Source of the DNA: a bacterium
GTDB taxonomy: Bacteria > Actinomycetota > Acidimicrobiia > Spongiisociales > Spongiisociaceae
Length of the DNA stretch: 64,000 nucleotides
Assembly (NCBI GenBank): GCA_028821235.1
Contig: JAPPGV010000014.1
Span: forward strand, 1-64,000
Direction: 5' to 3'
Below the pieces are notes generated by a model that saw only the letters and a program-made list of their open reading frames with translations, did not search any database and had not been told where the DNA came from. The position numbers and the translations under genes are program-made. Below are positions 13,530 to 18,532 of the stretch, piece by piece (the first letter of the stretch is position 1; each line of letters opens with the position of its first letter).

Positions 13530-15611
13530 TCAACCGAAGGCGCCGAACCACCGGTCGTGGATCTGTTTGTAGGCGCCGGACTCGATGAGGTCCAGGAGGG
13601 CCAGGTCGATCTGCTCGCGTAGCGCGATGTCGTCCTCGCCGACCATCAGCCCGTACTGAACCTTCTCGAACAATGGGCCGACCGTGGTCACCCTGCCCTG
13701 GCCCTGGCGCGCCACGTGGAACTGGAGAACCGGAGCGTCGAATACGACCGCATCGACCTCGCCCTGCGCCAGCAGGTCGTAGGCATGTTCGACCCCGTGC
13801 ACCACGACCGGGCCGACTCCGAGACCGGTCAGGTAGTCGTACCCGGCCGAGTCGTGGACGGTAGCGATCCGGTGACCGGGAAGATCGGCGGGTCCGTCGA
13901 TGGCGCCTCGGAGCTCGTTCACCGCCAGAGACGAGGCGATGGCGGCCGTAAAGCTGGCGAACACCAGGGTCCCCAGAGCGATCCAGATCAAGGCGAACAG
14001 CCTGCCCAATCTTCCACGGGCCACCTTGTCCCCGTAGCCGACCGTGCTCATGGTCACGACGGACCAGTAGAACGAGTCCCAGATCCCTCGGCCGTAGGGC
14101 GTAGCGAAGTCCGGGTTGTGCGTCCGTTCCAGCCACCAGATCAGGTGGGCGGCGATCAGAACGGCAACCGCGAACACCACGAGCAGCCACGGCAGGTCCG
14201 AGCCCCAGATGGCCGACAGAAAGACCGAGATGCGGTCCCAAACCGCTTGGGAGCCGCTGGTCGGGGTCATGATCGTGAGTCCGGTGTCGAGCAGGGGAAG
14301 CGAGAAGTCGATCGCTTCCTCGCGCGGGCCGGTAATCGCCACGCCCCCCAATCCCACGTCGGCTACCCCGCGGTGGATGTCATCCACCTGCTTGGCCACG
14401 GTGTCGACCGCGTAGATCTCGACCGTCCTGCCGAGGTGGGCGGCGATGAGCTTCACCAGGTCGACCTCGAAGCCGTTATACGTACCTTGGTCGTAGATGA
14501 CGAAGGGCGGGAGGGTACGGGCGGCTACTCGGAGCACACCCCCTGCGGCCACAGTATCGGTTCCGACGCCGGTGTCCAGCGCGATGGCCCCCGGATCGGC
14601 GGCTTCGATCCACGCGGACACCACGTCCGAATTGCGCGCCACCCATTCCCGGGCGTGTTGTCGGATGTCCTCCGGATCACCGTGGTCCCGGACCATGTGG
14701 GCGTTCTGTTCGGAGATGTCTCCGAGGGGGATCACCACCTGTTCGAGTAGCCGGCGAACGGCCGGGTTGGCCTCGAGAAAGCCGGAGTTGGCCACCGCCC
14801 GGATGTCGTTGGGGGGCCATCCGACCAGGCAGGGATCGTTGGCGCATCCCGGTATACCGGGTATCGAGGTCTGGTCGAGAAAGGCTGACTGGTCGGGAGG
14901 CAGGGAGGGGAACGGTGTCTCCAGCCACACCACGTCACGGCCGGGCACCAGTTCGCCTACCGTCCAGTTGGGAGTCCAGGTGTAGTACAGGACGGGCTGT
15001 CCTGCCTCGAACCGAGCGATCGTGTCCGCTATCAGCGGGGAATAGTCGCCCTGGACCTGTTCGACCGTGGTATCCAGTCCGAACGCTTCGAGTTGGTGCT
15101 CGATGATGTGGGAACAGGTCCACCCGGTCTCGCAACCGATCAGGTCGGCCCGCCCGTCGGCGTCCAGGTCGAAGAGCGCGGCGACTTCGGGATCGGCCAG
15201 GTCCCCGAGGTTGGTTATGGCGTGCGCCCCGGCCGTGGCCGCATCGACGAAGTAGCCCTGGAGAGCCCCGGCGTCGACCTGCGTCCCGACTCGCTCCACG
15301 AAGTCCTCCTCGATGAGACCGTCGTGGGTGGGGAACCATCCGTTCACCCAGAGATCGACCTCGCCGGCGGCCACCGCTCGGTAGAAGTCCGGGTTCTCCA
15401 TGGTGACCGGACCTTCCACGCGATATCCCAGGCGCAGTAGCAGCAGGCGGTATACCTCGGCCTGGAACCAGCCGGTGTCCCAGGTCGCCCTGGCCATCCG
15501 CACCGTCTTCGCTCCGGCGGGATCCTCCTCCGTCTGGCCCAGAGCAGGGACAACCGCTCCCATGGCCAGAAGTGCCAGAGCCGACAGTGAACAGGCGATC
15601 AGGGTGCGGCG
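13530..15611 (-). CDS. Chimeric betaine-binding domain / ionotropic-receptor-like K+ channel
   Basis: A 693-residue secreted/membrane protein. Domains in order: signal peptide (about 1-25); OpuAC/ProX-like glycine-betaine-binding domain (about 36-335) with tryptophans in WDTGW, NGWFP (W92) and TWTPNW (W212, W216) that could form an aromatic box; first lobe of a family-3 solute-binding domain (about 358-457); TM1 (about 473-494); re-entrant pore with K+ filter TVGYGD (523-528); TM2 (about 538-562) with ASFTAAIASSL, resembling the receptor SYTANLAAF motif; second lobe (about 567-693). The last four parts are the GluR0 layout. A DLDADGRAD loop (148-156) and a GCxxGWxC cysteine pair recur in the lipoprotein at 17591. 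GTG 15611 has a GGAG site and starts the signal peptide; a TTG at 15641 lacks one. It is divergent from the BCCT gene. The role as solute-gated K+ channel is inferred. Confidence 0.88.
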   Translation of the reverse strand, partial: RRTLIACSLSALALLAMGAVVPALGQTEEDPAGAKTVRMARATWDTGWFQAEVYRLLLLRLGYRVEGPVTMENPDFYRAVAAGEVDLWVNGWFPTHDGLIEEDFVERVGTQVDAGALQGYFVDAATAGAHAITNLGDLADPEVAALFDLDADGRADLIGCETGWTCSHIIEHQLEAFGLDTTVEQVQGDYSPLIADTIARFEAGQPVLYYTWTPNWTVGELVPGRDVVWLETPFPSLPPDQSAFLDQTSIPGIPGCANDPCLVGWPPNDIRAVANSGFLEANPAVRRLLEQVVIPLGDISEQNAHMVRDHGDPEDIRQHAREWVARNSDVVSAWIEAADPGAIALDTGVGTDTVAAGGVLRVAARTLPPFVIYDQGTYNGFEVDLVKLIAAHLGRTVEIYAVDTVAKQVDDIHRGVADVGLGGVAITGPREEAIDFSLPLLDTGLTIMTPTSGSQAVWDRISVFLSAIWGSDLPWLLVVFAVAVLIAAHLIWWLERTHNPDFATPYGRGIWDSFYWSVVTMSTVGYGDKVARGRLGRLFALIWIALGTLVFASFTAAIASSLAVNELRGAIDGPADLPGHRIATVHDSAGYDYLTGLGVGPVVVHGVEHAYDLLAQGEVDAVVFDAPVLQFHVARQGQGRVTTVGPLFEKVQYGLMVGEDDIALREQIDLALLDLIESGAYKQIHDRWFGAFG

Positions 15612-15815
15612 CACGATGGTCTCCGGTAGGGACTGCGCCAAGGCTAGCCAGGTATCCGTTTCTGCTCACCGAGCAAAATATCTGGGTTTCCCCGACCCAT
15701 TAATGGCCGTCTCCATATAGTGAACGGGCACAGGCCCCGGGCCGGGAGTGGCCGCGGGAACTGGCAGGCAACTGAAAGGAGGTCCGTATGGTCATCAGCA
15801 TCGGGAGGTGGCGCC
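15612..15815. promoter_or_regulatory. Divergent promoter region of the osmolyte locus
   Basis: This 204-nt space separates the channel gene from the BCCT transporter. It is visibly AT-richer than its flanks near the centre. It contains an inverted repeat TGCTC-ACC-GAGCA (15663-15675), about 50 nt upstream of the channel start. A perfect 10-bp palindrome CCATTAATGG (15697-15706) and a -10-like TATAGT (15716-15721) on the plus strand follow; no good -35 hexamer is seen. Either palindrome could be an operator controlling both directions. The assignment is positional only. Confidence 0.45.
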
Positions 15816-17594
15816 ATGGCTGACGGCAAGGGTCACGACCAGGACCTCGATCTCACCGGCATATCCGAGGCCTACGAGGACTGGGAGAAGGACCAAGAAC
15901 GCCGCCGCGAGGCTGCCATCCGGGAACGTGCGCACTTCCAGGGTCTTCAGGTAGACCCTGACATCGACTTCTATCCCGAGGTGGCCGATCGGGAGCCCGG
16001 TGACAAGAACATAGTCAGGTGGGGATTCGACATACATCCCCAGGTGACGTTCTACGCCGCGGGATTCCTGGTGATCTTCATCGCGGCCACCCTGATCTTC
16101 CCGGATCAGGCGGGTGGGGTGTTCAGCGCCATCCTCACCTTCATCAACGAGAAGGTGGGCTGGCTGTACATCATCGCGTTCAACGTCTTCATCGGAGCCG
16201 CGCTCTACTTCGCGTTGGGCAGGTACGGCAAGATACGACTAGGCGGCCCGGGGGCCCTACCGGAGTTCTCCACCCCCGCCTGGTACGCCATGCTGATCTC
16301 GGCCGGCCTCGGCATCGGGTTGATGTTCTGGGGCGTGGCAGAGCCGATCTTCCACCTGACGGCGCCGCCTCCCCTGTTCGACGTAGAACCCTTGTCGACG
16401 GGCGCGGCCCGGGCATCGCTGGCGACCTCCTACCTCCACTGGGGGATCCATGGATGGGCGCTGTACGGCCTGGTAGCCCTCGCCCTGGGGTTCTTCGCCT
16501 ATAACCGGGGACTGCCCCTGACCTTCCGCTCGGTCTTCTACCCGATCCTCGGTCCGAAGATCTACGGCGGATGGGGCAATGCGATCGATATCCTCACCGT
16601 GGTGGCCACCCTCTTCGGTCTGGCCACTTCGCTGGGGTTCGGCGCCTCGCAGGCCGCCGCGGGGCTGAACAAGGTCTTCGGCGTACCGGATACCCTGCTG
16701 GTCCAGATTCTGCTCATCGCAGGTATCACGGGGCTGGCCACCATCTCGGTTGTGGCCGGCCTGGACGCCGGAGTCAAGAGGCTCAGCGCGCTCAACGTAT
16801 GGCTGGCCGCGGCCTTCCTGGTCTTCGTACTGGCGGTGGGCCCGACCCTGCTGGTCCTCTCGCTGTACGTGGAGAGCATCGGCGTCTACATCCAGATCCT
16901 GCCGGAGTTCTCGTTCTGGAACGCAGCCCTGCTCGACACGCAGTGGCAGCAGTGGTGGACCATCTTCTACTGGGGATGGTGGATCTCCTGGTCCCCCTTC
17001 GTAGGCATGTTCATCGCCCGGATCTCCAAGGGGCGCTCGGTGCGGGAAATGATCGTCGGTACGATCGTCCTTCCCTGCCTCCTGTGCTTTCTGTGGTTCG
17101 CGGTGTTCGGCGGAGCAGCCATGAACCTGCAGATGACCGGAGAACTGGACGTTGCGACGGCGGTGAACGAGAACGTGGCGACCGCCCTGTTCGTGATGCT
17201 GGAGGCCTTCCCATGGACCTTCTTCGTCTCGATAGTGGGCATCCTGCTACTGGTCTCGTTCTTCGTCACCTCGTCGGACTCGGGATCCCTGGTGGTGGAC
17301 CACCTGACCTCGGGCGGAAAGCTCGACTCGCCTAAACCGCAGCGCGTGTTCTGGGCGTTGATGGAAGGCGCGGTGGCAATCGTGTTGCTGGCCGGAGGCG
17401 GCCTGTCCGCCCTACAAACGGCAGCGGTGGCGACCGGACTGCCCTTCCTATTCGTGCTCCTGATCATGCTGTGGAGCCTGAAGAAGGCCTTCGACGAAGA
17501 GCTCGACCTCTTGGAGAGCCATTACGACGAGGCCATCTTCCAAGCCCAACACAGCGGATTGATCGAGCGGTTGGAGAGAGGAGGTGACAAGTGA
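15816..17594 (+). CDS. BCCT-family betaine/choline/carnitine transporter
   Basis: A secondary transporter for quaternary-ammonium compatible solutes in the cytoplasmic membrane. The 592-residue protein has a long charged N-terminal tail (about 75 residues) and about 12 hydrophobic helices. It carries the family glycine motif GLGIGLMFWGVAEP and the signature FYWGWWISWSPFVGMF of the substrate/ion path. The acidic C-terminal tail (EELDLLESHYDEA) could serve osmosensing as in BetP. ATG 15816 is preceded by GGGAGGTGG. Its stop overlaps the start of a betaine-binding lipoprotein, which is unexpected because BCCT carriers do not need a binding protein. Confidence 0.93.
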   Translation: MADGKGHDQDLDLTGISEAYEDWEKDQERRREAAIRERAHFQGLQVDPDIDFYPEVADREPGDKNIVRWGFDIHPQVTFYAAGFLVIFIAATLIFPDQAGGVFSAILTFINEKVGWLYIIAFNVFIGAALYFALGRYGKIRLGGPGALPEFSTPAWYAMLISAGLGIGLMFWGVAEPIFHLTAPPPLFDVEPLSTGAARASLATSYLHWGIHGWALYGLVALALGFFAYNRGLPLTFRSVFYPILGPKIYGGWGNAIDILTVVATLFGLATSLGFGASQAAAGLNKVFGVPDTLLVQILLIAGITGLATISVVAGLDAGVKRLSALNVWLAAAFLVFVLAVGPTLLVLSLYVESIGVYIQILPEFSFWNAALLDTQWQQWWTIFYWGWWISWSPFVGMFIARISKGRSVREMIVGTIVLPCLLCFLWFAVFGGAAMNLQMTGELDVATAVNENVATALFVMLEAFPWTFFVSIVGILLLVSFFVTSSDSGSLVVDHLTSGGKLDSPKPQRVFWALMEGAVAIVLLAGGGLSALQTAAVATGLPFLFVLLIMLWSLKKAFDEELDLLESHYDEAIFQAQHSGLIERLERGGDK

Positions 17595-18532
17595 TCAAGA
17601 GATCGAGCACCACGATCGCCGCGGTCGCGGCATTCGTACTCGTGCTCTCGGCCTGCGGCGTTCCGGAAGAGGAGGGCCCCGTGGCGATCGCCCGGGCCAA
17701 CTGGAGTTCCGGCTACATGCAAGCTGCCATCTATGCGGAGTTGATCACGGAACTCGGGTACGAGGTCACCGATCCGGCGGCCGCCACACTCAGCCCCTAC
17801 TCGTTCTATCCGGCCCTGGCCGCCGGGCAGTACGACCTGTGGGCCAATGGGTGGTTCCCTCTCCACGACTTCTATCTTGAAGGAGAGAACGTCACCGGCC
17901 AAGCGGTCGACCTACCGATCGAACCGGTCGGCTGGCAGGTGGCCCAAGGTGCCACCGACGGCCTGATGATCGACAAGGCTACGGCTGACAGTCTGGGGAT
18001 CACCTCGATGGACGGTGTGGCCGCTAACGCCGGTGTCTTCGACAATGACGGCGACGGCAAGGCCGACCTATTCGGATGCAACGTCGGATGGGGATGCGAG
18101 TCTGCCATCAACGACCAGATCGCCAACGAGAGTTGGGGTTCCAGCGTGGAGCAGATCTCCGGCACCTATGACGAATTGGCCGTTGGGGTCGTGGACAAGG
18201 TGAGTGCCGGTCAATCGGCACTGTTCTATGCCTGGACGCCCAACTGGACGAACACCGTTCTGGTGGAAGGTCAGAATGCCGTCTGGCTGCAGTCGAACGT
18301 CAATCACATTCGAGCGGTGGCGAACACCGACTTCCTGGATAGGAACCCGGATGTCCAACGCCTGCTCGAGGTAGTGGCGATTCCGCTGGGTGACATCGCG
18401 GCTCAGAACGCCAAGATGGCCGCAGCCGACGAGTATTCGGAGGCTGATGTCGAGGCCGACGCGCAGGCTTGGATCGCCGCCAACCGTGCGAAGGTCGACG
18501 ACTGGCTGGCCACAGCGCGAGCTGCCGGCTGA
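17591..18532 (+). CDS. Glycine-betaine-type (OpuAC/ProX-like) solute-binding lipoprotein
   Basis: A 313-residue extracytoplasmic binding protein with a lipobox LSAC (C22), so anchored by lipid to the outer face of the membrane. Candidate ligand-box aromatics are in NWSSGY, NGWFP (86-90) and AWTPNW (214-219). A calcium-loop-like DNDGDGKAD (151-159) is followed by C163 and C169. It is collinear with the N-terminal domain of the channel at 13530. GTG 17591 overlaps the BCCT stop (GTGA), so translation is coupled. No ABC permease or ATPase gene accompanies it, making a partner role with the BCCT carrier or the channel plausible but unproven. Confidence 0.9.
   Translation: MIKRSSTTIAAVAAFVLVLSACGVPEEEGPVAIARANWSSGYMQAAIYAELITELGYEVTDPAAATLSPYSFYPALAAGQYDLWANGWFPLHDFYLEGENVTGQAVDLPIEPVGWQVAQGATDGLMIDKATADSLGITSMDGVAANAGVFDNDGDGKADLFGCNVGWGCESAINDQIANESWGSSVEQISGTYDELAVGVVDKVSAGQSALFYAWTPNWTNTVLVEGQNAVWLQSNVNHIRAVANTDFLDRNPDVQRLLEVVAIPLGDIAAQNAKMAAADEYSEADVEADAQAWIAANRAKVDDWLATARAAG

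Follow-up and report, generated by a model that had tools for sequence, protein, structure and literature searches.

The fusion gene and its distribution

The window, i.e., the whole stretch of 64,000 nucleotides that was analyzed, contains on its reverse strand a gene in which an OpuAC/ProX-type binding domain is fused to a K+ channel of the GluR0 kind. Two genes for a transporter and a free-standing binding protein lie divergently on the forward strand. The features are the following:

13530..15641, reverse strand: fusion gene, OpuAC domain plus GluR0-like K+ channel; 703 aa in one open frame, coordinates with the stop codon
15534..15614, reverse strand: signal peptide (about residues 10–36); hydropathy peak at residues 8–37, position ahead of the first domain, low pLDDT at residues 1–42
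14637..15509, reverse strand: OpuAC/ProX-type N-terminal domain (residues 45–335); Pfam, NCBIfam, match to 1r9l by sequence and fold, conservation
14535..14597, reverse strand: flexible linker from the N-terminal domain to S1 (about residues 349–369); pLDDT below 50 at residues 353–365
14262..14528, reverse strand: S1 half of the split family-3 binding domain (residues 372–460) with Arg440; Pfam, PDB match, conservation
14127..14195, reverse strand: first transmembrane helix M1 (residues 483–505); AlphaFold model, hydropathy
14025..14096, reverse strand: pore helix and K+ selectivity filter TVGYGDK (residues 516–539); Ion_trans_2, filter kept in 59–60 of 60 members
13911..14012, reverse strand: second transmembrane helix M2 with an FTA gate-like motif (residues 544–577); AlphaFold model, hydropathy and conservation
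13542..13907, reverse strand: S2 half of the split binding domain (residues 579–700) with Asp635; Pfam, PDB match, conservation
15720..17594, forward strand: BCCT (betaine/carnitine/choline) transporter, divergent neighbor; Pfam BCCT 8e-184, TIGR00842 above cut-off
17591..18532, forward strand: free-standing ProX-type binding protein with a lipoprotein-like signal; Pfam OpuAC 9e-33, NCBIfam ProX above cut-off

Two codons can serve as the start of the fusion gene, TTG 15641 and GTG 15614 (codon 10). The GTG is favored as the start, since the alignments with distant orthologues begin only near this codon. The original prediction had placed one uninterrupted gene at 13530–15611; the single open frame was verified, but the end at 15611 is three bases off GTG 15614. 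The predicted signal peptide was supported by the hydropathy profile, which also revealed two transmembrane segments (residues 471–507 and 543–577). In Pfam, four domains scored above their gathering scores, namely OpuAC at residues 45–335 (2e-49; 168.9 bits versus a gathering score of 21.2), SBP_bac_3 in two pieces at 372–700 (1e-23), Ion_trans_2 at 490–572 (4e-15), and Lig_chan at 485–588 (5e-10).

The distribution of the fusion turned out to be wide in the samples analyzed. Full-length orthologues in a single frame were present in 8 of the 9 other genomes of the genus, and the copy in the ninth (G006) is broken at contig ends. The class sample contained 26 fusion-bearing genomes among 395 (the window's own genome excluded, the broken copy of G006 included), the phylum-wide sample contained a few more, and for a cyanobacterial class the number was 2 of 194. 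In the named collection, fusions belong to Acidimicrobiia, Nitriliruptoria (the isolate Salsipaludibacter albus), and Jiangellaceae (Haloactinopolyspora alba, Phytoactinopolyspora), and the cyanobacterial fusions belong to Halomicronema, Leptolyngbya, and Symploca. Further fusions are from Chloroflexi, Desulfosarcinaceae and other 'Deltaproteobacteria' (Desulfobacterota/Myxococcota), Bacteroidetes (Bacteroidota), and Kiritimatiellae (Kiritimatiellota). The titles of several records suggest that the sources are marine, symbiotic, or from salt lakes, so that a saline habitat of the members can be inferred, albeit from names only. With regard to spread by plasmids, no full-length match was found in any plasmid record.

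The original prediction had called for a search for OpuAC, SBP_bac_3, and Ion_trans_2 in one chain. All three, together with Lig_chan, were detected in 43 of 43 diverse members that were scanned with Pfam. The prediction would have been refuted if a sequencing or assembly error had joined two genes. The window is from a draft assembly of 162 contigs, and split frames occur in a few relatives (L118, L122, L125), which would be compatible with an assembly or annotation artefact. However, whole orthologues exist in the eight congeners and in other classes and phyla, in independent assemblies, and the isolates Haloactinopolyspora alba, Salsipaludibacter albus, and Halomicronema CCY15110 carry the uninterrupted fusion. 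An assembly chimera is excluded by these uninterrupted orthologues, and we consider an artefactual join of any sort as practically ruled out. With respect to the displaced frames, L125 (6929–9084) is split at the linker and L118 (6926–11532) inside the pore region, and in L122 (7164–9044) the N-terminal part is in another frame. Whether sequencing errors or decay underlie these three cases was not resolved.

The two binding domains and the K+ channel

The N-terminal half matched the NCBIfam ProX equivalog with 341 bits (cut-off 215), whereas the choline-type model yielded only 36 bits and thus remained far below its cut-off of 379. In a sequence search against solved structures, residues 44–348 matched E. 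coli ProX (2e-62). An AlphaFold model was built with 43 homologues; its mean pLDDT was 78.8, with values mostly above 85 in the N-terminal domain. The first PDB match of this domain in Foldseek was 1r9l, i.e., ProX with glycine betaine (TM 0.91 by target, rmsd 1.6 Å, E 7e-30), and the identity in the structural alignment was 37%. A fold of residues 36–335 unrelated to OpuAC, which would also have refuted the original prediction, can therefore be dismissed. For the channel part, most of the subsequent matches were AMPA and NMDA receptors.

The residues W65, W140, and W188 of E. coli ProX, which belong to the glycine betaine box, align with W102, W174, and W222 of the fusion protein. Conservation was counted over 60 fusion members. 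W102 and W174 are present in all of them, and position 222 is a tryptophan in 51 and a phenylalanine or tyrosine in the remaining nine. H106, the equivalent of ProX H69, is kept in 52 members and replaced in eight, and C176, the equivalent of ProX C142, is kept in 60 of 60, as are W54 and W58. The residues of the ligand box thus rank among the most conserved positions of the whole fusion protein. On the basis of this conservation, a vestigial N-terminal domain was rejected. Together, the scores above the cut-offs of Pfam and NCBIfam, the ProX fold, and the aromatic box corroborate the predicted OpuAC/ProX-like domain. The likely ligand of this clamshell, inferred without binding data, is glycine betaine or a close quaternary amine on the outside of the cell.

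Two other views of the N-terminal domain have to be weighed against this inference. The domain might have a structural role only, in assembly or stability of the tetramer, as parts of the animal ATDs have, and ligand binding would then be incidental or lost. Engineered animal iGluRs indeed work without their N-terminal domain (PMC6385376), but the invariance of W54, W58, W102, W174, and C176, and the restriction of position 222 to W, F, or Y in all 60 members, make a purely structural role highly improbable. Alternatively, the domain might be a sensor for another solute, e.g., choline, proline betaine, carnitine, or DMSP, a variant that overlaps with the reading preferred below. The OpuAC and BCCT families cover these solutes, and one choline-type protein was found among the neighboring binding proteins of relatives. 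However, it is the ProX model and not the choline-type model that scored above its cut-off, and the box residues match those of E. coli ProX. A different ligand is therefore regarded as possible but doubtful.

The original prediction had also described a split family-3 domain around a TM-pore-TM unit with the filter TVGYGD and the second-helix motif ASFTAAIASSL. Pfam, hydropathy, and conservation were in agreement with this description. The filter is located at residues 533–538, with G535 and G537 in 60 of 60 members and Y536 in 59, and the second-helix motif is located at residues 562–572. The split domain matched the Nostoc iGluR-homologue domain 2pyy and NMDA receptors in the search against solved structures, and the closest NCBIfam model, GlnH, remained below its cut-off. 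Arg440 (60 of 60 members) and Asp635 (58 of 60) align with the equivalent residues of 2pyy. According to Ger et al., this Arg/Asp pair holds the alpha-carboxylate and alpha-amino groups of glutamate (PMC2950845). From the conservation of both residues, it is predicted that the split domain has retained the ability to bind an amino acid.

The two parts of the protein are connected by a linker that, measured from A348 to V372, comprises 21–23 residues in 41 of 60 members (range 21–42). The pTM of the model was only 0.49, and therefore, it is undetermined how the N-terminal domain packs on the channel part within the single chain.

Gene neighborhood and proposed mechanism

Of 33 dereplicated fusions, 23 have a BCCT gene at a distance of at most 4 kb, in contrast to 0 of 14 plain GluR0-like channels (Fisher p 8e-6, phylogeny ignored). 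Flanking genes of relatives were called with codon usage. In the count, L125 was classed as a fusion that is split at the linker and not as 'plain', and an OpuAC match beside L122 was left out, as it was read as the displaced frame of L122 itself. The nearby binding protein is of the ProX type in Acidimicrobiia and Nitriliruptoria, of the choline type in L117 (with a similar OpuAC gene in L121 and L125), and of the OsmF type in L113 (with a similar gene in L120). The recurrence of different kinds of binding proteins at one place, also in distant lineages, speaks for a functional connection with quaternary-amine osmolytes and not for the mere inheritance of one operon. One-strand adjacency to the fusion, in some cases with an overlap, was observed in L085, L095, L107, L116, L117, and L121. 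In the window, the BCCT gene may start at ATG 15816. The free ProX-type gene overlaps the BCCT stop codon by four bases, and the pair (15720–18532) is retained in many relatives.

The neighborhood is not uniform. BCCT was absent from the flanks seen of the cyanobacterial, Jiangellaceae, and Bacteroidota members and of one Desulfosarcinaceae member. At distant loci, the non-betaine neighbors are mixed (Radical SAM, EamA, YitT, D-Ala ligase, and others) without a common theme. Among the examined flanking frames of the window gene, no adjoining genes for an ABC importer (ProVW) were found; BCCT is the recurrent neighbor in the relatives. Scans for promoters and terminators around the divergent promoter region yielded nothing above chance.

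The proximity of transport genes raises the possibility that the N-terminal domain is a tethered capture protein that hands betaine to the BCCT or to an ABC importer without any effect on gating, while the channel anchors it or serves separately. In addition to the BCCT and the free binding proteins close by, the nearest free relatives of the domain, which include ProX proteins beside proV/proW-like genes (L128, L130–L134), would fit this view. However, the BCCT already has a free ProX-type protein beside it, both in the window and in most relatives, and BCCT carriers are not known to need or use a binding protein. Furthermore, the fusion is retained in members without a BCCT neighbor, and the ligand residues, filter, and gate motif of the channel have been kept, which would not be expected for a mere anchor. 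A role restricted to capture is thus considered unlikely.

Instead, we propose, with a probability of roughly 0.6, that the fusion protein is a two-sensor, periplasm-facing K+ channel, the N-terminal domain of which senses betaine-type osmolytes. Such a protein would connect the two main osmolytes of the cell. The domain order, the ProX fold with its aromatic box, the amino-acid-binding residues, the K+ filter, and the linkage to betaine/choline genes are observed in the sequences and the model; the ligand, the gating, and its sign are inferred. The protein would be a homotetrameric ligand-gated K+ channel of the GluR0 kind with a second clamshell sensor at its N terminus. External glycine betaine, or a close quaternary amine, would be bound by the N-terminal clamshell, and its closure would be relayed to the split domain via the flexible linker, which comprises about 22 residues. 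The state of the split domain would then set the ease with which an amino acid agonist opens the pore. It is likely that the N-terminal domain modulates an amino-acid-gated K+ pore, an inference without ligand, electrical current, or phenotype data for any of the members found. The original prediction had likewise presented the gating or modulation of K+ flux by betaine as an inference. Whether betaine favors opening or blocks the pore cannot be told from sequence.

The physiological part of the proposal is weaker. Bacteria take up K+ after an upshock. K+ uptake is reduced when betaine is imported, and the build-up of compatible solutes is accompanied by K+ export (PMC8844918). GluR0 conducts K+ and slows the shrinkage of cells after KCl upshock; activation by effluxed glutamate was proposed by the authors (PMC13099474). 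The channel might let K+ out while external betaine is available and imported by the neighboring BCCT, so that K+ would be exchanged for betaine, and the amino acid site might report released glutamate or a similar amino acid. A role in trading K+ for betaine is plausible, but it is an inference that rests on known physiology. The old question of K+-for-betaine exchange would become testable in one protein, and members in cultured strains make experiments practical. If the proposal were true, direct sensing of an extracellular compatible solute would, as far as we found, be suggested here for the first time for any channel.

A more far-reaching hypothesis, which we put forward only tentatively, is that of a two-key K+ valve. 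External betaine and an external amino acid, e.g., released glutamate, would together open a K+ path for the classic switch from potassium glutamate to compatible solute. In that case, the layered combination of a modulatory clamshell, an agonist clamshell, and a channel, which is credited to eukaryotic receptors, would also be an independent bacterial invention that serves osmoregulation and has been passed from phylum to phylum.

Relation to known receptors and origin of the fusion

The fusion protein shares with GluR0 of Synechocystis and the 'Group 1' receptors the order S1-M1-pore-M2-S2, the K+ filter, the Arg/Asp pair, and the lack of M4 (PMC2950845, PMC13099474). It differs in having a whole ProX-type domain in front of S1 and betaine-type transport genes nearby. 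Published accounts agree with the earlier statement that bacterial GluR0 has no additional N-terminal domain, and they place this layer as a later eukaryotic addition (PMC6385376, PMC11479355). The fusion meets the sequence and structure features of GluR0 except for having an N-terminal domain.

Animal and plant iGluRs with an ATD also have a second clamshell before the ligand-binding domain, and their channel part is structurally similar. However, their ATD belongs to a different family, which resembles leucine/isoleucine/valine-binding proteins, and they have M4 and lack the GYG K+ filter that is present in the fusion. No ATD of the ANF_receptor or Peripla_BP type was detected in the fusion with Pfam, the only domain in its N-terminal half being OpuAC, and no M4 was found after S2, with which the protein ends; the signal peptide is followed by two transmembrane segments only. 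The arrangement of a clamshell before the channel looks like an independent invention. With this conserved family, bacteria have a second clamshell of their own, which indicates more than one origin of the layered design. In addition, the fusion offers a compact model for the modulation of one clamshell by another.

Two further systems are similar in part. E. coli ProX (1r9l) has the same fold and the box of three tryptophans, but it is the free periplasmic protein of the ProVWX importer, whereas the domain of the fusion is covalently attached to a channel and no proVW genes adjoin in the window. DeCLIC, too, is a ligand-gated channel from bacteria to which an N-terminal domain, probably a modulatory one, has been added (PMC9897478), but it is pentameric, belongs to another channel superfamily, has jelly-roll domains, and is sensitive to calcium. 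A published family or any other description of the OpuAC plus GluR0-like architecture, which would have refuted the original prediction, was not found in the open literature searched; subscription papers were not covered.

In the channel tree, all 37 fusion rows grouped with two 'plain' rows (support 98/99), and the fusions also clustered in the tree of the N-terminal domain. The clustering in both trees points to few origins and a long co-inheritance. One of the two exceptions, L125, is itself a fusion with a frame split at the linker, and the other, L204, has a long branch. For the channel tree, a strict single clade of all fusions was weakly rejected (p-AU 0.033), which is due to the long-branch plain channel L204 and the split copy L125. 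The data are most simply read as a single fusion event with transfers between phyla and few losses or splits. A recent duplication of the N-terminal domain from the neighboring free ProX (17591–18532) was also considered; the fused domain does not stem recently from this protein, because the latter is found in a different clade of the domain tree.

Several related proteins were observed that have other combinations of the domains. A protein from Chloroflexaceae (L126:294–2429) contains OpuAC and SBP_bac_3 in tandem. It shares with the fusion a closely related OpuAC and the order of the binding domains, but it has no channel and was found on one contig only. It is a possible relative of a fusion intermediate. 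Two frames from the genus and the family of the window (L147:1807–4611, L149:8646–10958) each contain two tandem OpuAC domains and no other Pfam domain, and the window's own genome encodes an additional OpuAC protein of 556 aa with a long low-complexity C-terminal part (L148:7969–9636). Lastly, a symbiont of Olavius algarvensis (G765; L206, L207, L209) harbors one fusion together with about five plain GluR0-like channels.
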